Shown here: positions 30,242 to 51,668 of the stretch, one piece after another | How the letters are laid out: every line of letters begins with the position of its first letter | How positions within the stretch are numbered: position 1 is the stretch's first letter | NCBI GenBank assembly: GCA_016931455.1 | Contig: JAFGES010000042.1 | Location: 1-64,000 of the forward strand | Origin: Desulfobacterales bacterium | GTDB lineage: Bacteria; Desulfobacterota; Desulfobacteria; Desulfobacterales; JAHDSC01 | DNA length: 64,000 nucleotides | Direction of reading: 5' to 3' | Program-made: the position numbers and the translations under genes | Notes under the pieces: model-generated | The model's input: the letters and a program-made list of their open reading frames with translations, nothing else | What the model was told of the DNA's origin: nothing | Database searches by the model: none

Positions 30242-31396
30242 ATGCTTAAAAAATCATGTATTCCAGTAACCCTGTCTATGCACCGAAAACGTCTTTCAAT
30301 ATCGATGGCACTTTACGCAGTGATAATGTTGACGCTTTTATTCGCTCCATCTCTTCCCGTATCGGTTTTTGCAAGTGTCAGCGGGCCCTGTTCCGAATGT
30401 CATACAATGCATTACAGCCAAAACGGCAGTCCGCTTACTGGCGAAGATGTTGGTGCCGATGGGCCTTATAAAACGCTGTTGAAAAATGATTGTTTGGGCT
30501 GTCATACAGGGACCAATGACGGCACTAACATTGTTCCTTATGTAAATTCGGGAACTGAACCTACATTCGGGACAAATACACTTGCAGGGGGGAATTTCTA
30601 CTGGGTACAAACCGAAGATACCAAGGGACATAATGTATTTTTTGACAACCCGGATGACAATCTGGTTGAAGCTCCCGGAGACGTTGGCTTTGATAGTTGC
30701 GGAACGAATGCGTGTCATGCCAATTTGCATGCAGTTTCTTCCGGAGTCGCTGGGCTTGAAAACCGGCAAGGGTGCGAAAAATGTCACCTTAATGTAAAAC
30801 ATCATGCCGGCGATGGTACTGGGACAAAATATGTTAACTCTGCCGAGCAGGGGTGGTACCGTTTTCTATCAGGGCATTTAACCGGAGCAGGTAAAGGGGT
30901 TGAAGGTATTGAACATGAGAAGTGGAATTATGATGCCGATGCGAGTTCTCATAATGAATACTTAGGTGCGATCTATAGCGGTGATTACGGATTTGATCTC
31001 GGCAATACCACAACTGCTTATTGTACCGGTTGCCATGGCAAATACCATGAAGACCAGGTTTTCGGAGAAGAGGATAGTGGAAATCCTTGGGTACGACACC
31101 CTTCTGATGCAATAATTCCGAATGAAGGGGAATACGCCGATGCATTTGGCGCCGCGGGTACCGGAACAGGCACTTATGATCCCGGCGTACCGGTCGCCCG
31201 CCCGGCCGGATTTGCATGGGCGGCAGCAACTCCTAGTAGCGCCGTCACAATTGGAACAGACTTGGTTATGTGTCTTTCCTGTCATGTAGCGCATGGAAGT
31301 CCTTATGATGATTTGCTGCGATGGGATTATTCAGAAATGATTGCCAGCAGTGGTAATACCGGTGGATGTTTTCAGTGTCACACCTTGAAAGATTGA
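30242..31396 (+). CDS. OmcS-like multiheme cytochrome c (six CXXCH plus one CX4CH)
   Basis: Exported c-type cytochrome of 384 residues. After a long signal peptide (cleavage near residue 43, SVFASVSG) come CSECHTMHYSQNG, CLGCHTG, CGTNACH (residues 153-159, a C-X4-CH spacing), CEKCH, CTGCHGKYH, CLSCHVAHGSP and CFQCH. The order of landmarks (TMH after heme 1, GGNFYWV, GHN, YRFL, RHPS, CLSCH-AHGSP before the last heme) matches what I recall of Geobacter OmcS, the filament-forming hexaheme cytochrome. Two paralogues lie at 46496 and 50451; this one has one extra heme site. It has its own promoter and terminator. Filament formation is inference. Confidence 0.88.
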   Translation: MLKKSCIPVTLSMHRKRLSISMALYAVIMLTLLFAPSLPVSVFASVSGPCSECHTMHYSQNGSPLTGEDVGADGPYKTLLKNDCLGCHTGTNDGTNIVPYVNSGTEPTFGTNTLAGGNFYWVQTEDTKGHNVFFDNPDDNLVEAPGDVGFDSCGTNACHANLHAVSSGVAGLENRQGCEKCHLNVKHHAGDGTGTKYVNSAEQGWYRFLSGHLTGAGKGVEGIEHEKWNYDADASSHNEYLGAIYSGDYGFDLGNTTTAYCTGCHGKYHEDQVFGEEDSGNPWVRHPSDAIIPNEGEYADAFGAAGTGTGTYDPGVPVARPAGFAWAAATPSSAVTIGTDLVMCLSCHVAHGSPYDDLLRWDYSEMIASSGNTGGCFQCHTLKD

Positions 31397-31447
31397 AAAT
31401 TTCAATAGAAAATCATCATCCGGTAAAACAATACCAAACAAATAATG

Positions 31448-31491
31448 AACTGAGCGCAGGCCAAAGCAGCATCTGCGCTCAGTTGTTTTTT
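31448..31491 (+). terminator. Hairpin terminator after first OmcS-like gene
   Basis: AACTGAGCGCAG (31448-31459) pairs with CTGCGCTCAGTT (31473-31484), a perfect 12-bp stem with a 13-base loop, directly followed by a run of T. It lies about 50 bases after the stop codon. Confidence 0.88.
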
Positions 31492-31743: not shown

Positions 31744-31764
31744 ATATTTTTTGGAGAAAGATTT

Positions 31765-32833: not shown

Positions 32834-33838
32834 ATGAAACAAATAAATAAACTAATTCATCCTATTTTATATTTCCTCCTGGTTTTTTTTGCGTTTACCC
32901 CCTTTTCCCCTTCAACCCTTAGGGGCGCCGAGACCGCTGAATCGTCGGTTCGTTGTATCGATGTTATTACGATGGATCACTTAGGCGTAGGTCTTGCGTA
33001 TCCTTCAACGGTTTTTTATGATGCTTTGGGAGATGAGATTTACGTTACCGATTCAGCAAAAGGGCAGTTGGTCATTTACACTTCCGACTATTTCCCTCAG
33101 GTTAGTCTCGGGGCCGGCCGTGGGCTCAACTCGATTTATAGCTGTTATATCGGCAATGAACGACTTTTTGTCTGTCTTGGAACGAGTAAACAGGATCCTC
33201 GAGGGCATATCGATATATTAAATAACGCTTTTTTGCCTACGGGGAAGATTTACTTTTCAGGCTTTGAACAGTCGGCATCTTTCATTCCCCGCAAGATGGT
33301 GATTGGGAAAAAAGGCCGGCTTTATGTTGTCGGAGTAAATTCTTCTGAAGTTATTGTACTTGATTCGGCTGGAAATTACTTGCATAATATTAAACCTGAA
33401 GATGAAGTTTTGGGTGTTACAGAGCCTGCTTCGATTATTTCCCTAACGATAGGGCGAGATGGACGATTGTATTTTTTAAGTGAGGCAAGAGGGAGAGTTT
33501 TCGTATATGATCAAGACGAGCAGTTCCTTTACAAGTTTGGTCAAAAAGGGGGTGACAGGGGAAAGTTGGCAAGGCCGAGGGGCATTGCCGTCGATGATCA
33601 AGGGAAACAAGTTTATATTGTGGATTATCTGCGCCATTCGGTGTCGGTTTATTCAATAAAAGGAAATTTTCTCTATGAATTTGGAGGAAAGGGATACGGT
33701 CGCGGTTGGTTTCTTTATCCTACCGATATTTGTATTGACGGGTGGAGAAGATTATTGATAACCGATACATTTAATCATAGGGTTCAGGTTTTTGAGGTGG
33801 ATAATAAAAAAGAATCAGATGAGGATGGAATGCGATAA
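32834..33838 (+). CDS. Secreted NHL-repeat beta-propeller protein
   Basis: Exported protein of 334 residues with a signal peptide (about residues 1-31, ILYFLLVFFAFTPFSPST). The body is made of NHL-type blades such as GDEIYVTDSAKGQLVIYT, GRLYVVGVNSSEVIVLD, KQVYIVDYLRHSVSVYS and RRLLITDTFNHRVQVFE, giving about six blades. It has no CXXCH. NHL proteins are regular partners of multiheme cytochromes in extracellular electron transfer loci; they may scaffold cytochromes or bind cell-surface partners. It is the first gene after the sigma-54 site. Two other propeller proteins occur in the locus (45577 and 48895). Confidence 0.87.
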   Translation: MKQINKLIHPILYFLLVFFAFTPFSPSTLRGAETAESSVRCIDVITMDHLGVGLAYPSTVFYDALGDEIYVTDSAKGQLVIYTSDYFPQVSLGAGRGLNSIYSCYIGNERLFVCLGTSKQDPRGHIDILNNAFLPTGKIYFSGFEQSASFIPRKMVIGKKGRLYVVGVNSSEVIVLDSAGNYLHNIKPEDEVLGVTEPASIISLTIGRDGRLYFLSEARGRVFVYDQDEQFLYKFGQKGGDRGKLARPRGIAVDDQGKQVYIVDYLRHSVSVYSIKGNFLYEFGGKGYGRGWFLYPTDICIDGWRRLLITDTFNHRVQVFEVDNKKESDEDGMR

Positions 33839-33955: not shown

Positions 33956-34744
33956 ATGAAAAAGAAGCTTTTTGCAGGGATCGTTGGTTGTGCCTTGATA
34001 ATGATCTTATGCGTTGGGGTCGGTGCAGAGCTCGCTCCGGTTCCCTTGGCCAATAGCGACTGTATAAAATGCCACTTGAAAGTAGCAAGGGATATTGATA
34101 ATCGGGGAGCGATGCATAAGACCGAGGTGGGTTGCCTTGACTGCCACCTGGAACATCCCCCGGAAGGGAAAAACGTAATTCCGGATTGCGCTATGTGTCA
34201 TGCACCCACAGTAAAGTCCCATTATAATCTTGAAAACTGTGGAGTATGCCATTACCCACATTATCCCTTGGAAATGGATTTTAGTAAGATTGATGGGGTT
34301 AAATCGGTGTGCTGTACTTGCCATCCAAAACAATGTAACCAAATGGACAGTTATAAGAGTAAACACACTGAACTTGATTGCAAAGAATGCCATCTTGAGC
34401 ATCGCCAATATCTCAAGTGCATGGAATGCCATGAAGCCCACACTCCGGAGATGACCTATGAGGATTGTTTACGTTGCCATGAACCTCATATGGCAAGTGT
34501 CGTGAAGTATAAAAATGATATCCCAAATTCCTACTGCTCGGGTTGCCATGGAGATATTAACGATATTTTAGAGAAAAATACAACCAAGCATCATCAGCTC
34601 CTTTGTGTTTATTGTCATAAGGACCAACATAAATTAGTACCGAAGTGTGAAACATGCCACGGACGTCCGCATACATCCGATATACATTCTAGATATTCGG
34701 ATTGTCTTGAATGTCATCAAGACCCGCATGGACTGGTGAAGTAA
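33956..34744 (+). CDS. Secreted 12-heme cytochrome c (periplasmic partner of the porin)
   Basis: A 262-residue protein with a cleavable signal peptide (LFAGIVGCALIMILCVGVGA) and twelve CXXCH motifs, about one heme per 20 residues of mature protein: CIKCH, CLDCH, CAMCH, CGVCH, CCTCH, CKECH, CMECH, CLRCH, CSGCH, CVYCH, CETCH and CLECH. There is no lipobox Cys at the cleavage region, so it should be soluble. The C-terminal third aligns well with the lipoprotein 12-heme protein encoded next (CSGCHGDI/CAGCHGEI, CETCHGRPH/CQKCHSAPH). The two flank, with the porin, a trans-outer-membrane arrangement; this one is the likely inner partner. GGAGG lies just upstream of the ATG. Confidence 0.9.
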   Translation: MKKKLFAGIVGCALIMILCVGVGAELAPVPLANSDCIKCHLKVARDIDNRGAMHKTEVGCLDCHLEHPPEGKNVIPDCAMCHAPTVKSHYNLENCGVCHYPHYPLEMDFSKIDGVKSVCCTCHPKQCNQMDSYKSKHTELDCKECHLEHRQYLKCMECHEAHTPEMTYEDCLRCHEPHMASVVKYKNDIPNSYCSGCHGDINDILEKNTTKHHQLLCVYCHKDQHKLVPKCETCHGRPHTSDIHSRYSDCLECHQDPHGLVK

Positions 34745-34805
34745 TGATAAACTTTAAAGATGTCTTGAACTTATAAGCGCATATATTAAGCATTAAGGGG
34801 GACCT

Positions 34806-35720
34806 ATGAAAGAGTGGAAAAATTGGATTGTTTGCTTGCTGCTTATTGGACTGACGGCTTTTTTATGGAGTTGCGTAGCTGTACGGGAGGAAGGTGTTTC
34901 ATCGATTACACCGGTCACATCTGAAGAGGCCGTACGAGCGGAGAAAGCTGCCGGCGTGGCGGTAGGCAAGGCGGAAAATGTTTACAAATTAGATATTAAA
35001 GCGCTGGATACAGTTGATTGTGCCCGTTGCCATTACTCCGTTTTTACTGACATAAAAGACAACGGTGGTAAGCATCAACTGGAATGTCGAAAATGTCATG
35101 AGAGATTTCATACTTATAAACCGGGAACGCCATGGGAGGATGTTGTGCCAAAATGTACAACCTGTCATGGTGAGATTCATGGGAAAGATTTTTTAGATTG
35201 TATGGCTTGCCACACCGATGCCCATATGCCGATTTCGACAATGATAAATATCGAGGCATTGTCTAAAGATTGTGCCGGTTGTCATGTTGATCAGGCAACA
35301 GAGGTAGTCAAGTTTCCTAGTGCACATACCGATACAGCTTGTAGCGAATGTCATCATTCCAGCCACGGATATATCCCGGCATGTACGGAATGTCATCCTG
35401 AGCCGCATACGCCATATCAGAATAATACGGTTTGTGAAGGCTGTCATCCGGTGCATTCGCCTTTGCAAATTGCCTATGGTGAGGAGATCGACAACGGACT
35501 TTGTGCAGGATGCCATGGTGAGATAACTAAGACATTGCTGGAAAGTCCTAAAAAACACTCTACCGTTAAATGTGTTGATTGCCATGCACAGAAGCATCGT
35601 TTTATTCCCAAGTGCCAGAAATGTCATAGCGCACCGCATAGTGAAAGCTTGCTTCAAAAGTTTGGTAGCTGCGCAGATTGTCATGGTGATCCGCATGCCT
35701 TGGCATTAATGGAAAAATAA
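34806..35720 (+). CDS. 12-heme cytochrome c lipoprotein (outer-membrane partner of the porin)
   Basis: A 304-residue lipoprotein (lipobox FLWSC near residue 23) with twelve CXXCH motifs: CARCH, CRKCH, CTTCH, CMACH, CAGCH, CSECH, CTECH, CEGCH, CAGCH, CVDCH, CQKCH and CADCH. An approximately 40-residue linker precedes the first heme. It is a paralogue of the 12-heme protein just upstream and precedes the porin by 104 bases. In porin-cytochrome conduits a lipoprotein cytochrome caps the porin from outside while a soluble one enters from the periplasm; the same layout is seen here. Which face each occupies is inference. Confidence 0.9.
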   Translation: MKEWKNWIVCLLLIGLTAFLWSCVAVREEGVSSITPVTSEEAVRAEKAAGVAVGKAENVYKLDIKALDTVDCARCHYSVFTDIKDNGGKHQLECRKCHERFHTYKPGTPWEDVVPKCTTCHGEIHGKDFLDCMACHTDAHMPISTMINIEALSKDCAGCHVDQATEVVKFPSAHTDTACSECHHSSHGYIPACTECHPEPHTPYQNNTVCEGCHPVHSPLQIAYGEEIDNGLCAGCHGEITKTLLESPKKHSTVKCVDCHAQKHRFIPKCQKCHSAPHSESLLQKFGSCADCHGDPHALALMEK

Positions 35721-35824: not shown

Positions 35825-37855
35825 ATGATTGATCCGTATAAAAAATTAACTTTCTGGGTGGTGCTCTTGGTATTATTGCACCACCCGTTCCTATTAATTG
35901 CCGGCCCACTGGGTCTTACAGGAATTTGGCGGTATTCGGAAAGCGGCGGGGATACGGAAGATAGATGGTCTTTCAATCAGTCTTATGATGTAAACTTCGG
36001 CAAAGAACTTAGCGCAGGAATTAATTTTACGGGTGATCTACGTTATAGTGATACGAAAGATTCTGAGGAAAACGATAGAAGTCTGATAAGTCCCTCGGCG
36101 GCGATTGATTTTCGAAGTGATTGGTTTGCATTCAACCTCAGCGGGACGGGAGTGCGACGAGAAACTTCAGATCAACCTGAATTCACTGAAAAGGCCTGGA
36201 ATGCAAGTTGGTTCAGTCTTTTGGAAAAGTGGCCCCAACTTCGGCTAAACTATGGCCAAAGTTACCAGTACGACGACCAAAACCCTCACAGTCAAAATGA
36301 TCAATCAACCTATTTTTCTGCTAGTATGGATTATACTTGGTCGGTTCTAAGATTTTTTTATGACTTTCGGACAGACTTAAATAAGGATCGGGTGACGGAT
36401 ACGGCCACTGATACCGATAGGCATTTCGCCAATATTCAACTGACCAAGGATTTTTTAAATCATAAACTCAATTTCAGTGCTTCACAGCAATATTCTTTTT
36501 ATGAAACCGAAGTTGAAGGAGATGGTGGAGAATTTTATTTATCCAATCAAATATCTGATCCTAACAACACTTCTCTGCTTCCTGTATCCGGTCTCTTGAA
36601 ATTACAACCACCGGTTGAAATCGGTAAAAACTTAGATGCACAAGAGATAATTATTCATGTTTTTCAACCCGTGGATCGAATTAGAGCTTATTTAAATCGT
36701 GATGTAAGCGATAAAATAAGTGTTGAGAATTTTTTTATTTGGGAAGTTTATAGAAGCAAAAATGGTATTACATGGGAACCTATTGAAAAATTACCTTTCA
36801 TTGAATCCGAAGTAAAGGATGAGATATCTGTAGTAAACATTGTTATGCGATCTAAGCTTGAAGAAGGGTTTTTGAAAATTAGAGTTAGACCGAGTAGTAT
36901 TATAACCACTCTCAGAGATGTATCGATAGAATCTCTGGAAGCCCAAAGGCGAATTGAAGCTGAAACCGATATTTCAAAATTTAATAGTCAACAATCGCGT
37001 TTGAGTTTTAACTATCGACCATTGACAAACTGGTCTCTGGCCTATAATCTTACGCATACTCGCAATAAGCCGGACCCGGGATTGGACAATACTCAACTGA
37101 ATCATTCTTTAAATAGTTCCTATATTCTTAATCGGTATTTTTCAACTTCGATCGGGGTGAATGAGTATCGAGATAAAACGGAAGATCAGGAAAAGCAAAT
37201 CAGCAGGGTTTACTCTGTTTCTATGAGTTCATCACCGTTAACAACATTGGATCTGTCAGCAGGGTATACCCGATCAGATTGTTATGATGGCGGAACACAC
37301 ATGACTTCAACAGATTCTTTAAATGGATACTTGTCAGCTTTAATTTTTCCGGATCTTTCGGCTGGTTTGACCGGCAACTGGTCGAAGAGCTGGAATTACA
37401 TTACTGAAAATGATTCGACGGTATTCGGCTGGCGTATTTATAGTACCGCTCGGATTGATCCCAAGGTAAACCTTGACGTATATTATGAATCCGTCAGCAA
37501 CGAAGGAGATTCCAACCTGTATGGAATATCATCTGCATCCTCAGATTCAAATAGATATGGTATCGGTTTAAGTTATCGGCCATCAGATATTTTTTTAGTA
37601 TACTCTAATTTAGATCGTGATGAGGAAGATAATAATACGACTTTTTCCGGTAATATTTCCTGGAAATGGACTCCTAAAATTCTGATCAGTGGGCGGTTCG
37701 CCTTAGACATCAGTCAAGGAGATACGGAAAGTTATGATGCATCGCTGAATTGGTCTATTAGCCGCCATTTATCTTTAAGAAGCTCGTTTGATTATCAAAG
37801 CGCCGATGATCTGGATTCCTGGAATCTTTTAAATACTTTAAATGTTAATTTTTAA
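35825..37855 (+). CDS. Outer-membrane beta-barrel porin of the cytochrome conduit
   Basis: A 676-residue exported protein (signal segment FWVVLLVLLHHPFLLIAGPL) with alternating polar/aromatic strands throughout, for example WFAFNLSGTGVRR, YFSASMDYTWSVLRFFYDF and LSAGYTRSDCYDG, and ends in Phe (NTLNVNF), the classic C-terminal signal for beta-barrel assembly. About 20 or more strands are plausible but were not counted rigorously. A globular insert (about residues 245-390) interrupts the barrel pattern. The adjacent 12-heme pair makes it the probable sheath of an outer-membrane electron conduit, analogous to MtrB/OmbB but not evidently of the same sequence family. Confidence 0.83.
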   Translation: MIDPYKKLTFWVVLLVLLHHPFLLIAGPLGLTGIWRYSESGGDTEDRWSFNQSYDVNFGKELSAGINFTGDLRYSDTKDSEENDRSLISPSAAIDFRSDWFAFNLSGTGVRRETSDQPEFTEKAWNASWFSLLEKWPQLRLNYGQSYQYDDQNPHSQNDQSTYFSASMDYTWSVLRFFYDFRTDLNKDRVTDTATDTDRHFANIQLTKDFLNHKLNFSASQQYSFYETEVEGDGGEFYLSNQISDPNNTSLLPVSGLLKLQPPVEIGKNLDAQEIIIHVFQPVDRIRAYLNRDVSDKISVENFFIWEVYRSKNGITWEPIEKLPFIESEVKDEISVVNIVMRSKLEEGFLKIRVRPSSIITTLRDVSIESLEAQRRIEAETDISKFNSQQSRLSFNYRPLTNWSLAYNLTHTRNKPDPGLDNTQLNHSLNSSYILNRYFSTSIGVNEYRDKTEDQEKQISRVYSVSMSSSPLTTLDLSAGYTRSDCYDGGTHMTSTDSLNGYLSALIFPDLSAGLTGNWSKSWNYITENDSTVFGWRIYSTARIDPKVNLDVYYESVSNEGDSNLYGISSASSDSNRYGIGLSYRPSDIFLVYSNLDRDEEDNNTTFSGNISWKWTPKILISGRFALDISQGDTESYDASLNWSISRHLSLRSSFDYQSADDLDSWNLLNTLNVNF

Positions 37856-38005
37856 ATAATTTTAAAAATATCAATAAATAAAAAATATTGATGGAATAAG
37901 ACTTTAAATTTATAAGTTATTATAGATTGAAAATCAAAAAATGAAAGTAACAATGCAGGGTTTAATTAACCGTTATTGATTTCTTTAGTGAAAGAGGTGA
38001 AAAGT

Positions 38006-38584
38006 GTGCAAAAAATTGGATTGTTATTTATATTAACGATTGTAATGGTTGCCTTATTGGGTTGTGCCGGTGCACCCCTGCACTATGCCGATGAGACAAT
38101 AAGGCTGGGATATGTGAAACGTATTGCAATTTTGCCGTTCGAGAATCATACCCAAACGAAATATGCGGAAGAGCGATTACGCGATATTATTTCCACGGAA
38201 ATACTGAGTCGAGGTTTCTTTGAAGTAATTGAAAAAGGGGATTTGTCGCGCTTTCTCCAAGAAGAGTTGGTTAATCGAAAACAAGAAACAATCGATCTTC
38301 CAACCGCACAGAGATTAGCCCGTGACCTTGAGGTGGATGCTTATTTAGCAGGTTCGGTCGATGATTTTTCCGAAATTAGGAGCGGTTCATATGCTTATTC
38401 CGTCGTCGCTGCAACATTTCGACTTGTAGATGTAAAAACAGGAAAAATTATCTGGAAAACTAGTGGTACTGAAAGCGGGTATAGCACTTGGAGCCGAATT
38501 TTCGGTTTTGCCGGTGAGGATATCAATGAGGTCAGCTTTAAATTGGTGCGTAAGTTACTCGATACCATTCAAATAACGGAGTGA
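38006..38584 (+). CDS. TolB/CsgG-like lipoprotein
   Basis: A 193-residue lipoprotein from the GTG at 38006, placed eight bases after GAGG; starts further upstream give a poorer signal peptide. The lipobox LLGC follows a hydrophobic segment (GLLFILTIVMVA). The mature domain starts RIAILPFENHTQ and has VDAYLAGSVDDFSE and GKIIWKTSGTESGY, a TolB N-terminal/CsgG-like fold. CsgG-like proteins form or line outer-membrane secretion channels; others are assembly lipoproteins. It is the first of three genes with a related ILPF motif (with 38589 and 40145). Confidence 0.78.
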   Translation: MQKIGLLFILTIVMVALLGCAGAPLHYADETIRLGYVKRIAILPFENHTQTKYAEERLRDIISTEILSRGFFEVIEKGDLSRFLQEELVNRKQETIDLPTAQRLARDLEVDAYLAGSVDDFSEIRSGSYAYSVVAATFRLVDVKTGKIIWKTSGTESGYSTWSRIFGFAGEDINEVSFKLVRKLLDTIQITE

Positions 38585-40145: not shown

Positions 40146-40750
40146 TGAATTTCAAAAGGCTCCAAAATAGTTTGTTGGTGTTTTTTTTAATAACTTTTTG
40201 TTGCTCTTGTTCGATGAAAGTTGCACCGGAAACGGGCGGTAGATTTACAAAAGAAAGACCGAGTATTTGTAGAATTGCAATCCTACCTTTTGTTAATGAA
40301 AGTCGGAAACCGGAAGCCTCGTTGCAGGTCTATCGTATTTTTCTAAATGAGTTGGTCGCATCCGGTCAATATATAGTTGAACCGGAAGGTGAAGTTCGGC
40401 TGTTTTTGACTCGAAATAGACTATTTCCCCAAAAACTGATGGATGCTTCTATCTATGCTGAGTTTGCCAGGCAGCTTCAAGTTGATGCAGTCATTCGGGG
40501 GAAAGTTATAGATTACGACATGAAAGAAATTCAAGGATCTGAAATAATACCTCATTTGACACTTCAGATTGAAATCTTCGAAGCTCGTAGCGGCCGAATG
40601 CTTCTGAATACTTTTCATCGTAGAAACGGTAATGATTATCAAACGACGTTGCATTTCGGTACGGTTAAAACAATGAGCGGTTTAGTGGCCAGGGTGACAA
40701 AAGAAATTTACGAGGATTGGCTGGAAAAAGAGATAGGCGGATGTCGCTAA
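40145..40750 (+). CDS. TolB-like lipoprotein
   Basis: A 201-residue lipoprotein (hydrophobic LLVFFLITFCCSC, Cys about residue 21) whose mature domain carries RIAILPFVNESRKPEASLQV and LQVDAVIRGKVIDYD. It is the third TolB/CsgG-like protein in a row. The ATG at 40145 overlaps the stop of the preceding gene (TAATG), implying translational coupling. It likely belongs to the same outer-membrane assembly as its two neighbours; whether it makes a pore or a scaffold cannot be told. Confidence 0.75.
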   Translation: MNFKRLQNSLLVFFLITFCCSCSMKVAPETGGRFTKERPSICRIAILPFVNESRKPEASLQVYRIFLNELVASGQYIVEPEGEVRLFLTRNRLFPQKLMDASIYAEFARQLQVDAVIRGKVIDYDMKEIQGSEIIPHLTLQIEIFEARSGRMLLNTFHRRNGNDYQTTLHFGTVKTMSGLVARVTKEIYEDWLEKEIGGCR

Positions 40751-42396: not shown

Positions 42397-44359
42397 TGCA
42401 AAATATATTTCGGTAGCTTTTTTAGCAATGGGTCTTGCTTTATATGTTTTTAGTATCGGTTGTGTAATGAAACAGCCGAAAAGAATACATAAAACCTGCT
42501 TAGATTGTCATTCCGAACTCAAAGATCGGTATCGAGAGGGTAATGTCCATCAGCCGGTTAAGGAACAAAATTGCGAAAGCTGCCACCGGCCACATGGTCT
42601 AATTGGTGGAGTCTATCTGGATCGATCGTTGCCGGTTCTTTGTTATAAATGCCATAAAGAAACAGCTGAATCACTGAAAAAATTTAAAACAGGCCACACA
42701 CCGGTATCAAAAGGAAAATGTGACCTTTGCCATGATCCGCATAATTCGCCCAATCCGAACCTTCTCAAGCTGCAAGAAGATGAACTCTGTTTTAATTGCC
42801 ATGCGCGTGAATCGTTTCAAAAAAAAATTATTCATGAACCGGTAAATAAAGGTTGTAAAACTTGTCATGTTGCTCATGGCTCTAATTTTCCTGAATTGCT
42901 CAATGAAGAAGCAAATACGCTTTGTCAAAAATGTCACAAAATTAGCGATGAAAGATTTAAAGCCAAGCATGGAGGATATCCGGTAAACAAAATTTGCATA
43001 GACTGCCACAGTGTGCATTCCGCCGATAATTCAGCATTGCTGAAGGTGGTCATACATGATCCGGTTGCTGATATGCAATGCCAAAAATGCCATAATAAAT
43101 CTACGGATCCAAATCCTTTTGAATTGAATGCTTTAGAAATAAAACTTTGTTATGGCTGTCATGACAAAGAAAAAGCAAATTTTAAAATGACAAACGCGCA
43201 TCAACCGGTCAAAGAGGATCGATGTTTTGAATGTCACCGACCCCATGCAAGCGATTTCAATGGGATGCTGGAAAGTAGTCCTGAAAAGCTTTGTTTTAAG
43301 TGCCATACATTCAATTTCATCGGACCGCAAGCAAAAGAAATCGGAGCTGGAAGTGCGCATCCGGTTTCGGCCCGCGGCGAATGTTTAAAGTGCCATCGAC
43401 CGCATATACCCGCAGTCGGTGAATCACATTTATTGGCTGAGGCTGGGGAAAAACTTTGTAAAAATTGTCACAGTCAATTTTTTGTCAGCCAGACGGTTAA
43501 CCATCCGCCGGCTCAAAAGGGTGATTGTTTAAATTGCCATCAACCCCATGAGTGCCCGGCACCCAATTTGCTGGTAAAAGCTGAAAAAGATTTATGTGCC
43601 GAGTGTCACCAGTCGGTTGTGATGGATATGGGCAAACGAAGCCTACACCGTCCTTTCGCAGTTGGAAACTGTTCAGGTTGTCATCAACCTCACGGGGCAA
43701 AGAAAAAGAATCTTCTTTTGGAATCGGAGAATGATCTGTGCGTCAAGTGTCACGCAAAATTAGATGCTCAAAGAAAAGAAATCGGCCGCCATCAGCCGTT
43801 TAAGGAAGCTCAATGCAATACCTGTCATCAATCGCATGCAGGGGATTATAGCTTTATTTTGGACAAGCCGGTTGGAGAACTCTGTTTAGACTGTCACGCA
43901 TCTCTTCAAAAAGTATTAACGGCTCCGGTCGCCCATGAGCCCACTATACGGATGAGTTGTACAGTTTGTCATCATGCCCACGGTACTGCGAGGGAAAATT
44001 ATCTGCTGGAGGAGCAACCGGGTCTATGTCTCAATTGCCATCAGGTGAACAAATATTGGGAAACGGGTTTTGGTCATAAACCCGCGGTGGAAGGCCAATG
44101 CACGATTTGTCATGATTCACATTTTTCAACTATTAAAGGTCTTTTGAATAAAAACAGCGGACAGCTGTGTACTCAGTGTCACGAGGTTACTGAAGAGCAT
44201 TTAAAGCAAAGTCATCAAGGGATTGTTCCTTCGATGGAAAGTTGCTCCAACTGCCACGACTCGCACGGAGGTCCCGATTCTTCTCTTACATTTCCGGTTA
44301 AACACAGCCCCTTTGCCGAAGGTCAGTGTAAGCCCTGTCATCCGGGAGAGCGACTATGA
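42368..44359 (+). CDS. 26-heme cytochrome c lipoprotein
   Basis: A 663-residue protein with 26 CXXCH motifs counted by eye, mostly in repeated pairs of form CxxCH-xPH (CESCHRPHG, CDLCHDPHN, CFECHRPHA, CLKCHRPH, CLNCHQPHE, CSGCHQPHG, CTVCHHAHG), the doubled-CXXCH pattern. The N-terminus ends in SIGC (near residue 32), a probable lipobox, so it should be anchored to the outer membrane. Start is GTG at 42368 or ATG at 42377, both inside the end of the foldase gene. A protein of this size could span tens of angstroms as a molecular wire. The next cytochrome gene overlaps it by four bases. Confidence 0.9.
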   Translation: MKNMLPQTNSAKYISVAFLAMGLALYVFSIGCVMKQPKRIHKTCLDCHSELKDRYREGNVHQPVKEQNCESCHRPHGLIGGVYLDRSLPVLCYKCHKETAESLKKFKTGHTPVSKGKCDLCHDPHNSPNPNLLKLQEDELCFNCHARESFQKKIIHEPVNKGCKTCHVAHGSNFPELLNEEANTLCQKCHKISDERFKAKHGGYPVNKICIDCHSVHSADNSALLKVVIHDPVADMQCQKCHNKSTDPNPFELNALEIKLCYGCHDKEKANFKMTNAHQPVKEDRCFECHRPHASDFNGMLESSPEKLCFKCHTFNFIGPQAKEIGAGSAHPVSARGECLKCHRPHIPAVGESHLLAEAGEKLCKNCHSQFFVSQTVNHPPAQKGDCLNCHQPHECPAPNLLVKAEKDLCAECHQSVVMDMGKRSLHRPFAVGNCSGCHQPHGAKKKNLLLESENDLCVKCHAKLDAQRKEIGRHQPFKEAQCNTCHQSHAGDYSFILDKPVGELCLDCHASLQKVLTAPVAHEPTIRMSCTVCHHAHGTARENYLLEEQPGLCLNCHQVNKYWETGFGHKPAVEGQCTICHDSHFSTIKGLLNKNSGQLCTQCHEVTEEHLKQSHQGIVPSMESCSNCHDSHGGPDSSLTFPVKHSPFAEGQCKPCHPGERL

Positions 44360-45549
44360 AAACGCCAAAAGAGAAGATATTGATGCTGACTATTTTTGTC
44401 TTTATTGCCGAATGGTTATTCCTGCAATTAGCTTTAACATATGCATCTGATTGCTTTAAATGCCATCAGACTGAAAATTTTAAAGGCAAAGTCATTCATC
44501 AGCCAGTCAAAGAAAACAAATGTGCTGCATGCCACAGCCCTCACGTCGCCAAACATAAAGGACTGCTAAAAATTGAACAGGCAAAATTATGCTTTCAATG
44601 TCATGAAAGCATCGAAGAAAAAGTCTCCCAGAGTAAATTTTTGCATCAACCGGTTAAAGATGGAAACTGTGTTAAATGTCATGCACCGCATGCGGCTGAA
44701 TATTTAGGGTTAATGGATAAAACTATCGCTGATGAATGTTGGACCTGTCATAAAAAACCCCAAAAAGACTACGCTTACTCTCATCAACCGTATGCGAAAG
44801 GTCAGTGTAATTCTTGCCATGATCCCCATGGTACACCTAACTCTAATTTAATAATAAAAACTGCACCGTCTTTATGTCTTGATTGCCATAAAAAAGAGGG
44901 TGATTTAAAAAAGCGTCATCTTAATAAAGACCTTTTTGAGTTAAACTGCCTGTCTTGTCATAATCCACATGGAAGCAACGAATCGTCACTGGTTCGCTCC
45001 GTGCGCCATGCGCCTTTTGCTAAAGGGGCCTGCAGCGTTTGCCATGAAAAGCCGAATCAAATTCGTGTATGTTTGGATTGCCATCAGGATACTATTTCTT
45101 CATTTTACAAATCACAGTCCCACGTAAAGGGAAATGGTATGGGTAACCCCTGTGCTAATTGTCATACTCCTCATGCGGCGGATCGATCGGGTTTGCTTTA
45201 CGGCGCCGATGGTGAGGCCTGTCGGGCATGTCATGAGGATACATTTAAGCGAAGGGAAAAGACGCTTTATAAACATTCGGAATGGAGCACCTGTACCCAT
45301 TGCCACTCCGTTCATGGGGCCGATCAATTGGCTATGTTAAAAGATGAACCCGATAAGGTTTGTGCGGGGTGTCACGAAAAACATATCAACTTCGTGCATC
45401 CAATCGGGGACAAGGCGATTGACCAGCGTAATGGAAAACCAATGAATTGTATTTCTTGTCATGACCCCTGTACCGGCACGATGTTTAAAGCGCAATTACG
45501 CGGCAGTTCCGGAGGGAGTCTGTGTCGAGAATGTCATATTGGTTACTAG
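44356..45549 (+). CDS. 16-heme cytochrome c, doubled-CXXCH type
   Basis: A 397-residue exported protein (signal about residues 9-31, WLFLQLALTYAS) with 16 CXXCH motifs: among them CFKCH, CAACHSPH, CVKCHAPHA, CNSCHDPHG, CLSCHNPHG, CSVCH, CANCHTPHA, CTHCHSVHG, CISCH and CRECH. Its repeat pattern (QPVKENKC, HQPVKDGNC, HQPYAKGQC) matches the 26-heme protein, from which it may derive by duplication. The ATG overlaps the preceding stop (ATGA), so the two are translationally coupled. No lipobox, hence probably soluble or peripheral. Confidence 0.9.
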   Translation: MKTPKEKILMLTIFVFIAEWLFLQLALTYASDCFKCHQTENFKGKVIHQPVKENKCAACHSPHVAKHKGLLKIEQAKLCFQCHESIEEKVSQSKFLHQPVKDGNCVKCHAPHAAEYLGLMDKTIADECWTCHKKPQKDYAYSHQPYAKGQCNSCHDPHGTPNSNLIIKTAPSLCLDCHKKEGDLKKRHLNKDLFELNCLSCHNPHGSNESSLVRSVRHAPFAKGACSVCHEKPNQIRVCLDCHQDTISSFYKSQSHVKGNGMGNPCANCHTPHAADRSGLLYGADGEACRACHEDTFKRREKTLYKHSEWSTCTHCHSVHGADQLAMLKDEPDKVCAGCHEKHINFVHPIGDKAIDQRNGKPMNCISCHDPCTGTMFKAQLRGSSGGSLCRECHIGY

Positions 45550-45576: not shown

Positions 45577-46473
45577 ATGAAATTGAGATCATTTATTATC
45601 GGAATTAATTTTATACTGATCATATTGTCCGGGGCTATTGTTGCTTTAGCTGGTAATAGTTCCTGGCAATATTTCGGACAAATTCCGCTTCAAAATTCGG
45701 AAGTAAAACTTAAGCGTCCAATTTTTATCGATATTGATTGGCAACGTCAACGATACTATGTAGTGGAGATTGAGGGGAAACAGCTTGTTTCATTTGATAA
45801 AGAAAGAAAAATGCTCACCGCCTTTAACGCTGATGCTAGCTTAAAAGTACCTATTGCAATGGCTAGGGACAGCCAGGGAAATGTCTGGGTTGTAGAGCGG
45901 GCTGAAAATCAGCTTTTATACATTGATTTCAAAGAAAAAAAGATTGATAAATTTACTTTAACCCACACGGATGGTAGTCTAGTTTTTATTGATCGTCTGG
46001 CAATTGGACCGCAAGATTTTCTATTTGTCCTTGACCGAATGCAAGGCGCTATTCTTAAACTGGATGACAGTTTAAAAGTGATCAAAATATTTTCCAGTTC
46101 CGCTCAAGACTTTTCAGGCTTTCATGATTTTAAAATAAAATCCGATGGACTTTGGGCGCTTGATGGTTTTGCTCGCAAAATTTATCATTTTAACACCCAT
46201 GATGATACGATTGAAGTCATTAACTTCACCTCAACGGATCTTCAGTTTCCCATTGCATTAGAACTCGATGATTCCAAACAAATATATGTTCTGGATCGTC
46301 ATGCTGGCCATATCGGCGTCTACGATCAAAAAGGCCGATTTAAATATAATTTTATAGAAAGAGGTAAACGTAACGGCCGATTATGGTATGCTTCAAATTT
46401 GATATTTGATTGGGAAGGACGGTTGTGTGTGGTTGATGAGGGAAATGGACGTATTGAGATGTTTACACGTTAA
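45577..46473 (+). CDS. Secreted beta-propeller protein
   Basis: A 298-residue exported protein with signal peptide (FIIGINFILIILSGAIVALA) and NHL/YVTN-like blades (YYVVEIEGKQLVSFD, GNVWVVERAENQLLYID, QIYVLDRHAGHIGVYD, GRLCVVDEGNGRIEMFT). About five to six blades. It contains no heme motif. GGGAGA lies seven bases before the ATG, 27 bases after the 16-heme gene. Second of three propeller proteins in the locus and most like the one at 32834. Confidence 0.83.
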   Translation: MKLRSFIIGINFILIILSGAIVALAGNSSWQYFGQIPLQNSEVKLKRPIFIDIDWQRQRYYVVEIEGKQLVSFDKERKMLTAFNADASLKVPIAMARDSQGNVWVVERAENQLLYIDFKEKKIDKFTLTHTDGSLVFIDRLAIGPQDFLFVLDRMQGAILKLDDSLKVIKIFSSSAQDFSGFHDFKIKSDGLWALDGFARKIYHFNTHDDTIEVINFTSTDLQFPIALELDDSKQIYVLDRHAGHIGVYDQKGRFKYNFIERGKRNGRLWYASNLIFDWEGRLCVVDEGNGRIEMFTR

Positions 46474-46495: not shown

Positions 46496-47569
46496 ATGAA
46501 TGATTTAAATCGAGGAAATGTAAACATTGCTTATTTTCTGATTGCTTTCCTATTTTTTTTTATTATTGGAATTGGATTAAATACCCGCCAATTAGGTGCA
46601 AGCGTGCCCCAAATGCCGTGTTCCGCCTGCCACGTAATGCATAAAGCAGAAGATGATTATAGACTAACTTTGTCCGATAGAAAGGCGCTTCTAAATAATA
46701 CTTGTATCGGTTGCCATACCGGAACCAACAATGGCGGTGATACCCCCTATGTATTCTCCTCTATAGAACCGATTTATAATCTGACCGGCACTGAAGCGAA
46801 TACGAATACATTAGCCGGCGGTAACTTTTATTGGGTTAAACAAAGTGGCGGAGATTCGATGGGTCATAATGTTGCTGACCTGCAAAATCCTGACGAAAAT
46901 TTATTAACTCCTCCAGGGTTTGACGGTGGTAGGCCTGCAGCCGATGGAACAATCCCCGGAAATGGGACCTGGCCTGTCGGACAATCGGTTTCATGTGCCG
47001 GGACTTACGGCTGTCATGGTAAGCATGATTCAACATTTGAAACTACAGCGATTAAAGGAAGCCATCACCAAGGCGGCAATGGTGCCATTATCGCGCCGGG
47101 TACGGAACCCGCAGGCGGATACCGGATGTTGGTCGGAATTGCCGGTTATGAAGATCCGGATTGGGAATTTCGTCCGACCTCATCCAAACACAATCAATAT
47201 AAAGGAGCAGATGGTACGGGCGGCAGCGATGATTCAACAATCAGCTACTTATGTGCTGAATGCCATTGGGATTATCATATTGATATTGCACCTTGGATTC
47301 ATCATCCCTCTGATTATGATATGGGAAATACGGCCATCGATTCTGAATATCGAGAATATGGCGGCGTTTCAAATGCTTACGAAATCGTTACACCTGTCGG
47401 CAGTAACGTTGTTTCTGCTGTAAAATCAAACGTAACATTTAATGATGATACCATTGTCACTTGCATATCTTGCCATCGGGCACATGGGACACCCTATGCT
47501 AAAAGTTTCCGCTGGGATTACATGGGTGGAATTGGTGATGGCTGTACCAACTGTCATACATCAAAATGA
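46496..47569 (+). CDS. OmcS-like hexaheme cytochrome c (five CXXCH plus CX5CH)
   Basis: A 357-residue exported cytochrome with the ATG at 46496 and a signal segment (YFLIAFLFFFIIGIGL). Motifs are CSACHVMHKAED, CIGCHTG, CAGTYGCHGKH (Cys167 to Cys173-His174, five intervening residues), CAECHWDYH, CISCHRAHGTP and CTNCH. Conserved landmarks GGNFYWV, GHNV, YRML, HHPSDYD and the late CISCHRAHG place it with the OmcS-like paralogues at 30242 and 50451. The third site replaces the CXXCH seen at the equivalent OmcS position. It is encoded between a propeller gene and a 7-heme cytochrome gene, unlike the other two, which look monocistronic at their 3' ends. Confidence 0.88.
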   Translation: MNDLNRGNVNIAYFLIAFLFFFIIGIGLNTRQLGASVPQMPCSACHVMHKAEDDYRLTLSDRKALLNNTCIGCHTGTNNGGDTPYVFSSIEPIYNLTGTEANTNTLAGGNFYWVKQSGGDSMGHNVADLQNPDENLLTPPGFDGGRPAADGTIPGNGTWPVGQSVSCAGTYGCHGKHDSTFETTAIKGSHHQGGNGAIIAPGTEPAGGYRMLVGIAGYEDPDWEFRPTSSKHNQYKGADGTGGSDDSTISYLCAECHWDYHIDIAPWIHHPSDYDMGNTAIDSEYREYGGVSNAYEIVTPVGSNVVSAVKSNVTFNDDTIVTCISCHRAHGTPYAKSFRWDYMGGIGDGCTNCHTSK

Positions 47570-47610: not shown

Positions 47611-48819
47611 ATGATAAATTTCTGTGATAACTTGACTCTATCAATGCAAAAAACAATGATATTTAAATCGGCTATATTATTATTGTTGTTTTTATGTTGC
47701 ATTTCAGGAATATCATTTGCCGGGCCTTATTCCATATCCGCGCATGGAAATTCAGCTTATGGCGTTGTTGTTGATTTACTTAATACACCGCCGAATAAAT
47801 ATTCCCGCGGAAACTGCGGGCATTGCCATAGCAACAAGCATAGCGGCGATATGAATTATAAATTTAACGATTTTATAAATTCACAAGCCGATATATTTTG
47901 CTATCGATGCCATCAAAGCCCCGTGAATTCTTCACAGGTTTCTATGCATTATCAATATTCTTATAGTCGAATGGCCGGTGGTGATACAAAGATCAATTGT
48001 CCGGACAATATCAAAGATGCTTTTCAATTTATAGACGTGGCTGGAAATTCACAGATAAACTGCGGCAGTGTGAACGGTTCCTCACATTTTTTAAAAAATA
48101 TCAGCACTTTTATCCAAAATAAATGGGATTTCGGATCAAAAAATATCAATCCGTGTCTTGGTTGCCATAATGTTCATAAAGCTCAGAGAGCTTCATATCC
48201 TATTGGTGATAAGGGTACATCGCCTCTTTCACTGCCCAGCAGCCACAATCAAGGTTGGGATTTGTGGGGTGATGATATCACCGAAAGGATGAATATTTAT
48301 ACCACTAATTACCAAGCCCCATATGCCTCTAATTCCAAAACATTTGAGCCGAATGCAGATGGAACATTCAATGGTTCAAATATGCCTGATTATATAACAT
48401 TTTGTCTGGATTGTCATAAAAAAAATTATGACACGCAAATGGTCAGTGCACAAAGAAATAATTTTACAAATAATTTTGCTGGAAATTTTATCAGAAATCC
48501 GGATTGGGATATTTCACCCCATGGAAAGACCGATGGAGTGATGAATGATAATATAAAGCGAAAGGCGCCGTATACAACCGATAAAAACTATGTCCTATCC
48601 TGTATGGATTGTCATGAAGCCCACGGAAGTCCGAACGGATTGCTTATTAGAAAAACGGTCAATGGAGAAAGTACGGTCGATTTTACCGATTGGACGAGCA
48701 GAGAATCATGGTTGAGCCTTTGCCGGCGTTGTCACGTTATTGATAATGAGCATAATAAAAATGGTGGACAATGTAGCTCTTGCCATTCTCATGAAATAAA
48801 CTCTGAAAGAACTTTTTAA
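47611..48819 (+). CDS. 7-heme cytochrome c
   Basis: A 402-residue exported protein (signal segment SAILLLLFLCCISGISFA) with seven CXXCH motifs: CGHCHSNKH, CYRCH, CLGCHNVH, CLDCHKKN, CMDCHEAHGSP, CRRCH and CSSCH. Long heme-free stretches (about 80 to 120 residues) separate motifs, unlike its heme-dense neighbours. The start was taken at 47611 with AGAGGA about ten bases before. I know no named orthologue. It may be an extracellular cytochrome given the sparse packing and Asn/Ser-rich surface, but this is a guess. Confidence 0.86.
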   Translation: MINFCDNLTLSMQKTMIFKSAILLLLFLCCISGISFAGPYSISAHGNSAYGVVVDLLNTPPNKYSRGNCGHCHSNKHSGDMNYKFNDFINSQADIFCYRCHQSPVNSSQVSMHYQYSYSRMAGGDTKINCPDNIKDAFQFIDVAGNSQINCGSVNGSSHFLKNISTFIQNKWDFGSKNINPCLGCHNVHKAQRASYPIGDKGTSPLSLPSSHNQGWDLWGDDITERMNIYTTNYQAPYASNSKTFEPNADGTFNGSNMPDYITFCLDCHKKNYDTQMVSAQRNNFTNNFAGNFIRNPDWDISPHGKTDGVMNDNIKRKAPYTTDKNYVLSCMDCHEAHGSPNGLLIRKTVNGESTVDFTDWTSRESWLSLCRRCHVIDNEHNKNGGQCSSCHSHEINSERTF

Positions 48820-48894: not shown

Positions 48895-50334
48895 ATGGCT
48901 TTTAAAAATAATTTATATTTAAAAATATTATTTTTTTTGTTTATTCTTTTAATAACTGGTTGTGCAGGAAGCCAAATCGGCCCCCATCAAAAGGCTGCAG
49001 GTCCGGATACGGCCTTGATTACGATTTATTTGGAAACCGTCGGACAATGTTCAGGGTCTGTTTCTTTTGTTTTAGATGAGCTATCTTTACTGGCGGGTGA
49101 GCAGTGGCATGATTTAAATATTCAACCGGTTCTGATCGATTCCAGGGCGGTGGCTGGAAAGCAGCTGCTTGTCGGACTATCGAACATGCCGATCGGCAAC
49201 TATACTCAAATAAGGTTTCGCCTAACGCAGATTAAAATTCACAATAACATTCAAGATAGTTCCGGTGAAGATCGAAGCATACCTCTTTCATACCCTTTGT
49301 CGGTTACGTTGGAAGAGCAAGACTCGACGTGCTTATTTGTTAAATGGAATCTAAACGATTGTTTGGAGGAAAATAGCCGTTTTAACCCGCGCTTTTCTAC
49401 TAGTGGGCAAATTGAATCGTTTACCGGTGATCTGCTTTATGTAGTTTGCGATGATATTAATACATTATATTTGATGCGTACTAATAAAAATAATGTCGTC
49501 GCTTCAATTGGTTTACCCAATCGGCTAGGACAAATTCGATTTGATCCGCATCGACTTCGACTTTATGTGCTCAGTCCCGGAGCACGATGTGTTTATGTTC
49601 TTGACTGTAGCGATAACCGACTTATAGATCGCATCTCTTTACCGCTGACACTTGAACCCCGTTTTATGGATTTATCTTGGAATGGAGATTACTTATTTAT
49701 TACCGATACACCATCAAATCGAGTGTTGAAAATTGATTTGCAAACAGGAATTGTAGACCAACACATTACCTTTGGTTACCGGCCGGAGCGAATCATATAT
49801 TTCGAGTATTTTATCGATAGAGGCGGAAAATGTAAAGGAGATAGATGGTTGGCGGTCAGCGCACCTGATTCGCAACAAGTTTATCTCCTAAATGCCGATA
49901 ATCTGAATGTCTGTAATGCAATTGCCGCCGGTCTGGCACCGGACGGGCTTCTCTTTTTAGATGGTTTGTTATATATTACCGATCGGTTGAGTAACATGGT
50001 GAATGCTTACAATCTTTACGAGAACCGATTGACTGCCCGTATTCGTGTGGGGCTGGAACCCTTATTTTTATTGTCGGACCAAATGGGTAAAATTTATGTA
50101 AGTAATCATGGAGCAGATTCACTTTCGGTTGTCATTCCCGGCCAACAGACAGCATTAAATGAAATACCGATAGGCCGAAGTCCTTTTGCAATGGCCCGTT
50201 CTCAAAGGCGTCAAATTATTTATACGGCTAACCGAGAGTTAAAAAAAATTACAATTATGGATCGAAATGCCGATAAGATTCTATCAATCGCCGAATTGGG
50301 CGGGAAACCTTTTTTTCTTGACATCTGGGAATAA
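48895..50334 (+). CDS. Beta-propeller lipoprotein with DUF4382-like N-terminus
   Basis: A 479-residue lipoprotein (lipobox LITGC at about residue 23). The N-terminal domain (about 40-145, with LLVGLSNMPIGNYTQIRFR) resembles DUF4382; it is followed by a seven-bladed YVTN-type propeller (for example LRLYVLSPGARCVYVLD, GLLYITDRLSNMVNAYN and QIIYTANRELKKITIMD). No CXXCH. It is the third propeller in the locus and the only lipid-anchored one; it precedes the last OmcS-like gene, so it may link cytochrome filaments to the surface (inference). Confidence 0.82.
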   Translation: MAFKNNLYLKILFFLFILLITGCAGSQIGPHQKAAGPDTALITIYLETVGQCSGSVSFVLDELSLLAGEQWHDLNIQPVLIDSRAVAGKQLLVGLSNMPIGNYTQIRFRLTQIKIHNNIQDSSGEDRSIPLSYPLSVTLEEQDSTCLFVKWNLNDCLEENSRFNPRFSTSGQIESFTGDLLYVVCDDINTLYLMRTNKNNVVASIGLPNRLGQIRFDPHRLRLYVLSPGARCVYVLDCSDNRLIDRISLPLTLEPRFMDLSWNGDYLFITDTPSNRVLKIDLQTGIVDQHITFGYRPERIIYFEYFIDRGGKCKGDRWLAVSAPDSQQVYLLNADNLNVCNAIAAGLAPDGLLFLDGLLYITDRLSNMVNAYNLYENRLTARIRVGLEPLFLLSDQMGKIYVSNHGADSLSVVIPGQQTALNEIPIGRSPFAMARSQRRQIIYTANRELKKITIMDRNADKILSIAELGGKPFFLDIWE

Positions 50335-50450
50335 CTTAAGTACAGAATTTAACTTGTCGATCAGATATGGAAAAGCAGCAAATTTTGGAAAAAATTTGAT
50401 ATTGTAAAAATTTATCATGATTAACACTTAGCTTAAGGGAAGGGGAAAAA

Positions 50451-51668
50451 ATGAAAAGCAAAATGCGGAGTATCATAGGTTTTTGTTTCTATGCTTCTCT
50501 GGTAATTGGGTGTATGGTCATTTTGTGCACAGGGCCGGCCTTCGCCAAGGTAGCGGGACCCTGTTCAGACTGCCATACCATGCACAACAGTCAGAATGGT
50601 GTTGTTTGGCCGGGCAATGATGATGGGCCTTTTAGGGCGTTGACGACAGGTGGTTGTGTGGGGTGCCATACCGGAACCAATGATGGCACGATCGATAACA
50701 ACATTCCATTTGTTATGAGCACAGCAGAACCGACTTATGGACCGGATTATGCTGCCAATGGTACCTATAGCAATTCTGGAAATACCTTAGCCGGCGGTAA
50801 TTTCTATTGGGTGGCAAGCGCAGGTGGAGGCACCGATAATCTGGGGCACAATGTCGAAACAGATTCTCTATCGAATGCTGATGCCGCTATCGGGCAGACG
50901 CCGCCCGGCTTTGTTTCCGGTTGGGGAACTTCCGGAATCGGTGCTACATGGGCTAGTAACCAGCTAACCTGCGCCGGTACTTACGGTTGTCACGGCTCTC
51001 ATACCTACGCCGATGATTTTGCCGATATCAGTGGTGCGCATCATGCAGATGATACAGGCGGAATCACGGGAGCAACGGTTGGTTTAAGTTATCGCTTTTT
51101 GTACAAAATTCTTGGTAAAGAGATGAACACCGTTGGAAATGCCTGGGAGTATCAGCCTACTCCGACGGCTCACAATCAGTATAAAGGGTATGACCGCACG
51201 GATGCAACGGCTATTCCTACCCTCGGTTCCACAACCGGTGGTAACACCATCAGTTTCTCCTGTGGTGAATGTCACGGCGATTATCATAGCGGTGCGGATG
51301 TAGCCTATTCAAACCCAATTGCAGCTGATCCATGGCTTAGACATCCCAGTGACTATGATATGGGGAATACTTTGGCCGGGGCTGAATATTACGATTATTA
51401 TGGCACGGATGGAACAACTAGATGGGCGTATAATGTTGTGGCACCGGTAGCTAGTGCAAATGTTGCAAGTGTTATTTCTGCTGTTAATCCAATAACCAAC
51501 GATGATACCGCCATTGTTACCTGTTTGTCCTGTCATCGAGCACATGGTTCACCTTATGCGGATCTCTTGAGATGGGATTACCAGTATATGCAAGCGGGTA
51601 CGCAGACACCTGCAGGCTGGAATAATAAGGGGTGTTTTGCCTGCCATACAACCAAAGATAACGGATAA
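50451..51668 (+). CDS. OmcS-like hexaheme cytochrome c, candidate nanowire subunit
   Basis: A 405-residue exported cytochrome (signal peptide ending near GPAFA, then KVAGPCSDC). Motifs are CSDCHTMHNSQNG, CVGCHTG, CAGTYGCHGSH (Cys174 to Cys180-His181), CGECHGDYH, CLSCHRAHGSP and CFACHTTKD. Order and spacing match OmcS from memory: TMHNS at heme 1, GHN, YRFL, RHPS and an RAHGSP motif followed by LRWDY. A strong ribosome binding site (GGAAGGGG) and a hairpin terminator right after the gene suggest high, independent expression. Of the three paralogues this is the best candidate for a filament subunit; structure was not tested. Confidence 0.9.
   Translation: MKSKMRSIIGFCFYASLVIGCMVILCTGPAFAKVAGPCSDCHTMHNSQNGVVWPGNDDGPFRALTTGGCVGCHTGTNDGTIDNNIPFVMSTAEPTYGPDYAANGTYSNSGNTLAGGNFYWVASAGGGTDNLGHNVETDSLSNADAAIGQTPPGFVSGWGTSGIGATWASNQLTCAGTYGCHGSHTYADDFADISGAHHADDTGGITGATVGLSYRFLYKILGKEMNTVGNAWEYQPTPTAHNQYKGYDRTDATAIPTLGSTTGGNTISFSCGECHGDYHSGADVAYSNPIAADPWLRHPSDYDMGNTLAGAEYYDYYGTDGTTRWAYNVVAPVASANVASVISAVNPITNDDTAIVTCLSCHRAHGSPYADLLRWDYQYMQAGTQTPAGWNNKGCFACHTTKDNG

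Follow-up and report, generated by a model that had tools for sequence, protein, structure and literature searches.

Three secreted relatives of the cytochrome OmcS beside an osc/Oet-type gene cassette in a Desulfobacterales genome

Contig JAFGES010000042.1 of the GenBank assembly GCA_016931455.1, a 3.38-Mb bin of 133 contigs that is 97% complete and derives from a Desulfobacterales bacterium, carries within its first 64,000 nucleotides (positions 1 to 64,000 of the forward strand, referred to here as the window) three genes for multiheme cytochromes that are related to OmcS, the cytochrome of Geobacter filaments. These cytochromes, here called A, B, and C, belong to a clade that is sister to OmcS, and the genes between A and C include a cassette of the kind known as osc or Oet from other bacteria.

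Three paralogous cytochromes and their relationship to OmcS

A, B, and C each begin with a signal-like segment at the N-terminus, and the three proteins are clearly paralogous; C shares 51% identity with B (226 bits) and 43% identity with A (185 bits). An earlier reading of the window, referred to here as the original prediction, had described three exported paralogous multiheme cytochromes at these positions, and this description was borne out. The reading frame of B opens at a TTG at 46406, with an ATG at 46496. Searches of Pfam and NCBIfam with A, B, and C returned generic CXXCH families only. The heme sites of B and C comprise five CXXCH motifs and one CX5CH motif (CAGTYGCH), while A has seven sites, among which an extra CXXCH precedes an HH pair. 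Provided that the CX5CH motif is counted, B and C have six heme sites in the order found in OmcS, and A has these sites plus one; the claim that all three share the same six sites in order thus holds for B and C on this condition and does not hold for A. With regard to the landmarks that had been listed for all three proteins, GHN, a YRFL or YRML segment, and a late C(L/I)SCHxAHG motif are indeed common to A, B, and C, while the TMH that follows heme 1 and the RHPS motif are found in A and C and are replaced by VMH and HHPS, respectively, in B.

A scan of named genomes with an alignment of the three sequences yielded 27 loci, which together with the window provided a set of 34 homologues. When a profile of these 34 homologues was compared with the Protein Data Bank (PDB), OmcS (6EF8/6NEF) was matched with an E value of 1.1e-24, and the runner-up, a nitrite reductase, with an E value of 1e-3. 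In an hhalign comparison with OmcS residues 8-348, the whole family reached 99.6%, and the A subgroup reached 99.4% over the first part only. With single sequences, C matched OmcS in the PDB at an E value of 3.5e-6; single-sequence PDB searches with A and B gave no OmcS match, and for these two proteins only profiles recovered OmcS. In the reciprocal direction, a hidden Markov model (HMM) of 27 OmcS-clade sequences scored A, B, and C at 72.1, 59.1, and 53.0 bits, respectively, and the other genes of the cassette and other multiheme cytochromes of the window at no more than 10.7 bits. Shuffled versions of the three proteins in which the heme cysteines and histidines were kept fixed (200 per protein, 600 in total) reached at most 18.5 bits with the same model; because these motif-keeping shuffles score so far below A, B, and C, the match to OmcS does not merely reflect shared CXXCH motifs, and CXXCH spacing alone was rejected as its source. 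A, B, and C are members of the OmcS family in the broad sense, i.e., their homology to OmcS exceeds that to other solved multiheme cytochromes.

An AlphaFold2 (AF2) model of C, built with 34 alignment rows, was of low confidence (predicted local distance difference test [pLDDT] 60; predicted template modeling score [pTM] 0.62). In a further structure comparison with this model, OmcS 6EF8 was the sole chain returned (Z 6.5, 235 residues, 5.1 Å), and the low-confidence model is collinear with OmcS, with residues 37-365 lying on OmcS residues 8-335, which lends weak support to an OmcS-type fold. The proposed OmcS likeness is supported by HMM comparison in both directions, and a best match to a non-filamentous cytochrome, which had been named as the outcome that would speak against it, did not occur, as OmcS tops the PDB sequence search and is the only chain returned for the C model. 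The preference that had been expressed for C as the filament subunit fared less well; C alone has a single-sequence match to OmcS, but it is A that the OmcS-clade profile scores highest, so that C is not singled out, and none of the three proteins is identifiable as the main subunit.

In a tree of 83 sequences, OmcS relatives and the sister clade are separated by a branch of length 1.37 with a support of 100, and A, B, and C all group into the sister clade. Within this clade, a hexaheme group (support 99), which consists of 36 CX5CH members and one CX9CH member, includes B and C, while A falls, together with a Desulfurivibrio homologue at locus L031, into a group that has a seventh heme (support 97). 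If OmcS proper is taken to comprise proteins inside the OmcS clade in which all heme motifs are CXXCH, then A, B, and C are not OmcS proper, as the tree places them outside that clade and their heme 3 is CX5CH or CX4CH. Homologues of A, B, and C (E≤1e-10) were found in 30 of 291 genomes of the order, indicating a patchy trait, as expected of a cassette that was gained or often lost.

The CX5CH motif at the place of heme 3

A joint alignment of the groups matched five OmcS heme motifs, i.e., all except heme 3, in every group. At the place of heme 3, C has the CAGxxGCH site (window positions 50970-50993, residues 174-181), and B has a matching site. Both cysteines and the histidine are present in all 38 hexaheme members, 37 of which have exactly five residues between the cysteines; the exception, L039:9959-11119, has a CX9CH motif (CAGDANGQHGCH). 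Heptaheme members have CX2CH, CX3CH, or CX4CH there, followed by the extra CXXCH and the HH pair. The fixed spacing and the invariance argue that CX5CH is a real heme site, to which a heme would be covalently attached. If CAGTYGCH were heme-free, by contrast, B and C would be five-heme proteins in which the likeness to OmcS heme 3 is residual and the continuous heme chain is broken. Such a reading would be consistent with a spacing that is unlike every CXXCH of OmcS, with a histidine that aligns with OmcS His147 and not with His144, the proximal histidine of heme 3, and with a search, not an exhaustive one, that found no solved structure with CX5CH. It is difficult to reconcile with cysteines and a histidine that never vary across the hexaheme members or with the presence of CX2, CX3, and CX4 spacings at the same place in the heptaheme group. 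While a literature search on the term CX5CH found nothing, a study on Desulfurivibrio counts CXnCH with n = 2-5 as heme motifs and aligns six such motifs of the cytochrome DA_402 with OmcS (PMC12545173). We consider a heme-free site improbable. What stands out most in this family is the invariance of CX5CH at heme 3, and both this site and the heptaheme branch are of structural interest.

The gene cassette and its host

The genes between A and C (Table 1), which the original prediction overlooked, are a more telling part of the locus than the cytochromes alone. An eight-gene block, which starts with a predicted outer-membrane β-barrel gene and continues with genes for a CsgG/LpoB-like lipoprotein, an exported protein, a second lipoprotein, a PPIC-type isomerase, a 26-heme cytochrome, a 16-heme cytochrome, and an NHL propeller, is followed by an OmcS-like gene, and this order is repeated in many sister-clade loci. 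Family profiles from the window genes were also compared with two Geobacter-type OmcS loci; both of these genomes, which encode close OmcS homologues (60-73% identity to OmcS), carry this block next to OmcS-like genes with its gene order unchanged, and the profiles also confirm their 26-heme, 16-heme, and propeller genes. The position of B is that of the OmcS paralogue that follows the block at locus L095. The window thus holds a cassette of the osc/Oet type, i.e., a collinear block beside an OmcS-like gene. The protein encoded by the first gene of the block, a putative barrel, had no Pfam match.

Table 1. Cytochrome and cassette genes of the locus, in window positions
Feature	Coordinates	Strand	Evidence and counterparts
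Cytochrome A	30242..31396	+	OmcS-like sister clade, heptaheme subgroup; 6 CXXCH + CX4CH (CGTNACH); TMH, GHN, YRFL, RHPS, CLSCHVAHG
NHL-repeat β-propeller	32834..33838	+	Pfam NHL 7e-16; relatives adjoin OmcS-like genes at other loci
Exported 12-heme cytochrome	33956..34744	+	12 CXXCH; 12-heme pair conserved in L024, L026, L028, L036, L099
12-heme cytochrome, lipobox-like signal	34806..35720	+	12 CXXCH; pairs with 33956..34744 gene
Predicted outer-membrane β-barrel, block gene 1	35825..37855	+	Profile vs barrel-position genes 5e-33, 1e-32; OetI-type by description
CsgG/LpoB-like lipoprotein of block	37976..38584	+	Pfam CsgG 7e-7, LpoB 4e-7; family profile 3e-42
Exported protein of block	38589..40145	+	No Pfam family; family profile 6e-28
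Second small lipoprotein of block	40127..40750	+	Block position; recurs at other loci
PPIC-type peptidyl-prolyl isomerase	40717..42396	+	Pfam Rotamase_2 2e-20; family profile 4e-33
26-heme cytochrome, lipobox-like signal	42368..44359	+	26 CXXCH; 35% identity, same position by OmcS homologues; GSU2495/OscI counterpart by description
16-heme cytochrome	44356..45549	+	16 CXXCH; GSU2494/OscJ counterpart by description
NHL β-propeller, last of eight-gene block	45577..46473	+	Pfam NHL 2e-8
Cytochrome B	46496..47569	+	OmcS-like sister clade, hexaheme subgroup; 5 CXXCH + CX5CH
7-heme cytochrome after B	47611..48819	+	Conserved downstream of B; not OmcS-like by profile (10.7 bits)
β-propeller lipoprotein	48895..50334	+	Profile 3e-37, 5e-28 vs L095/L093 propellers; OscD position by description
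Cytochrome C	50451..51668	+	OmcS-like sister clade, hexaheme subgroup; 5 CXXCH + CX5CH

In Geobacter sulfurreducens, the eight-gene block GSU2500-GSU2493 has been linked to maturation and secretion of OmcS and always occurs with the OmcS-like gene GSU2501 (PMC12977616). The name osc operon has been given to this block, with a role in folding for OscH and in secretion for OscE-G; the isomerase of the window is likened to the OscH-type folding factor of Geobacter (PMC13194489). The 7-heme cytochrome gene has counterparts just after B-type genes at loci L017, L019, L020, and L037. The first of these loci (JAMOVR010000148.1) is on a contig of a metagenome-assembled genome labeled Heimdallarchaeota, which carries a bacterial cassette that is closest to Thermodesulfatator and is probably a binning error. 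Directly downstream of C, a ResB-type cytochrome c maturation gene is located at 52150-53520 (Pfam ResB 1e-105), and a weak ResB relative lies near the OmcS-like gene at locus L023. On the other side of the locus, 22817-27452 holds a pair of neighboring genes that overlap and belong to the Hsp70 superfamily; the first of them matches Pfam HSP70 at 8e-19.

The host had been predicted to be a sulfate-reducer-type bacterium, which is at odds with its gene content; no match over the cut-off was found for dsrA, dsrB, or aprA in the 97% complete bin, while dsrA was over the cut-off in 33 of 40 genomes searched in the same way. In one other genome of the same family that was searched (G001), neither dsrA nor OmcS-like genes were found. 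In having no sulfate-reduction genes, the host is atypical of its order. No 16S gene was found in the bin.

Ligand histidines, filament formation, and known systems

In the structure of OmcS, His16 is the ligand that one subunit supplies to heme 5 of its neighbor. The histidine that aligns with His16 in the joint alignment is H45 in C, H57 in A, and the histidine of VMH in B, and hence the presumed inter-subunit ligand is present in all three proteins. Among hexaheme members, 37 of 38 keep this TMH histidine, the remaining one being a truncated open reading frame, as do 19 of 19 heptaheme members and 23 of 27 OmcS-clade members. In Geobacter-type genomes, three paralogues of the OmcS clade that adjoin the assembly block, at the equivalent cassette position (L092:12490-13875, L092:14072-15409, and L095:17768-19201), are without it (e.g., CEGCHGRPAS) and may not form OmcS-type interfaces; as several OmcS-clade paralogues are without this histidine, the fact that the sister clade retains it is telling. 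In OmcS, one ligand of heme 505 is supplied by the neighboring molecule (PMC6584659), and the interfacial heme has likewise been described as ligated from a neighbor (PMC12954529). Neither the OmcS clade nor the sister clade shows any variation at the equivalents of OmcS His110, His257, and His335. By contrast, H197, H198, and H241 (C numbering) are conserved in the sister clade and absent from OmcS, and H279, also conserved in the sister clade, is found in only 11 of 27 OmcS-clade members.

A role of the locus in extracellular electron transfer appears highly probable to us, while filament formation by at least one of A, B, and C is probable to a lesser degree. With moderate confidence we read A, B, and C as secreted sister-clade relatives of OmcS that are accompanied by an osc/Oet cassette, with at least one of them forming a head-to-tail chain of the OmcS type. 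The cassette would fold and export A, B, and C and connect them to the periplasm, and the block would pass electrons across the outer membrane. Outside the cell, at least one of the three cytochromes would polymerize head to tail as an OmcS-type heme chain, in which each subunit would use its TMH histidine to ligate a heme of the following one (heme 5 in OmcS), and electrons would go on to an external acceptor or a partner cell. Family membership, paralogy, export signals, the synteny of the cassette, and the conservation of the heme sites and the TMH histidine are evident from the sequences, whereas we infer a covalent heme at CX5CH, polymerization, the direction of electron flow, and a possible division of labor among A, B, and C.

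A number of observations weigh against filaments. Conserved free histidines number eight in the sister clade, compared with six hemes (in C, H45, H133, H197, H198, H241, H279, H298, and H365), and a monomer might in principle supply ligands to all of its hemes on its own; histidine counting therefore cannot decide whether a ligand from a neighbor is needed. A Foldseek search with the low-confidence C model gave no match at E≤10, and an AF2 model of A, built with 13 homologues, was unusable (pLDDT 36) and was discarded. Furthermore, G. sulfurreducens has four homologues, with a wire known for OmcS only (PMC12977616), and the need for OmcS filaments has been disputed (PMC13194489). A, B, and C might instead be soluble or surface-bound monomers or short oligomers, similar to the uncharacterized OmcS homologues OmcT, OmcJ, and GSU2501, that shuttle electrons between the 26-heme/16-heme conduit and the outside without forming filaments. 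We regard this alternative as unlikely; most OmcS homologues of G. sulfurreducens are without a known filament (PMC12977616), and spare conserved histidines could finish heme ligation within a single chain, but the TMH histidine is better conserved in the sister clade than in the OmcS clade, and DA_402 of Desulfurivibrio alkaliphilus, which is described as belonging to the OmcS sister clade and is induced more than 100-fold, is predicted to form filaments (PMC12545173).

A special case of the reading that we favor is that the filament is built from one paralogue, B or C, while the heptaheme A is an accessory protein, e.g., a terminal reductase or a unit at the tip, the base, or a branch. In agreement with this, A belongs to a subgroup of its own, in which there is a seventh heme and heme 3 is spaced differently, and is encoded outside the B-C gene run, and hexaheme and heptaheme genes adjoin each other at loci L016, L018, and L034. 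We nevertheless find an accessory role doubtful, given the top score of A with the OmcS-clade profile and the occurrence of a heptaheme member alone at the cassette position of locus L037, as if it were able to replace the hexaheme one. More speculative still, the sister clade might form a filament distinct from that of OmcS, with a CX5CH heme mid-chain, remodeled HH/HN distal ligands, and hexaheme and heptaheme subunits that are co-assembled or swapped, in a lineage that is without the sulfate-reduction genes of its order and would rely on extracellular electron transfer.

The prediction of nanowires for the sister clade (DA_402), the presence of several such paralogues per genome, and the cassette are already published. 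Most descriptions of OmcS-like wires and of their assembly block come from Geobacter and from partners of methane-oxidizing archaea, and the window locus contributes an example from a lineage that has no sulfate-reduction genes, within an order that is otherwise rich in dsrA. As the presumed inter-subunit ligand is kept across the sister clade, which yet uses an odd CX5CH heme site, this clade offers a clean target for filament structure outside Geobacter.

The same kind of gene set is found in syntrophic sulfate reducers that are partners of anaerobic methanotrophic archaea (ANME), in which an OetABI conduit occurs with OmcX and with OmcS-like and Apc2a cytochromes as putative nanowires (PMC10553843), and SEEP-SRB1 has an operon core of 26-heme, 16-heme, peptidyl-prolyl isomerase, and propeller genes (PMC5539420). 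These sets share with the window the 26-heme and 16-heme cytochromes, the prolyl isomerase, a six-bladed propeller, the barrel, a 12-heme pair, and several six-heme extracellular cytochromes; the 12-heme pair, which at 33956-35720 is likened to its counterpart by description, was called OmcX-related in the latter study (PMC5539420). Their hosts are sulfate reducers, unlike the window genome with its missing dsrA, dsrB, and aprA, and the likeness to the OmcS-like and Apc2a cytochromes is by description. DA_402, as well as DA_756 and DA_765, of the Desulfurivibrionaceae, is described as extracellular and resembles A, B, and C in having CX2-5CH motifs that align with OmcS, in occurring as one of several paralogues per genome, and in its predicted polymerization (PMC12545173); it comes from a different organism, its clade identity follows the description in that paper, and it differs from A, B, and C in having expression data. 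OmcS itself (6EF8, 6NEF) has approximately 25-30% identity to A, B, and C, and differs from them in a CXXCH at heme 3 (CX5CH in B and C; CX4CH plus an extra heme in A), in an N-terminal FH that they lack, and in the absence of the HH and HN histidines that are specific to their clade. It shares with them the six-heme order, the TMH, GHN, YRxL, RHP, and CLSCHRAH landmarks, a last heme at the C-terminus, and the flanking eight-gene block.

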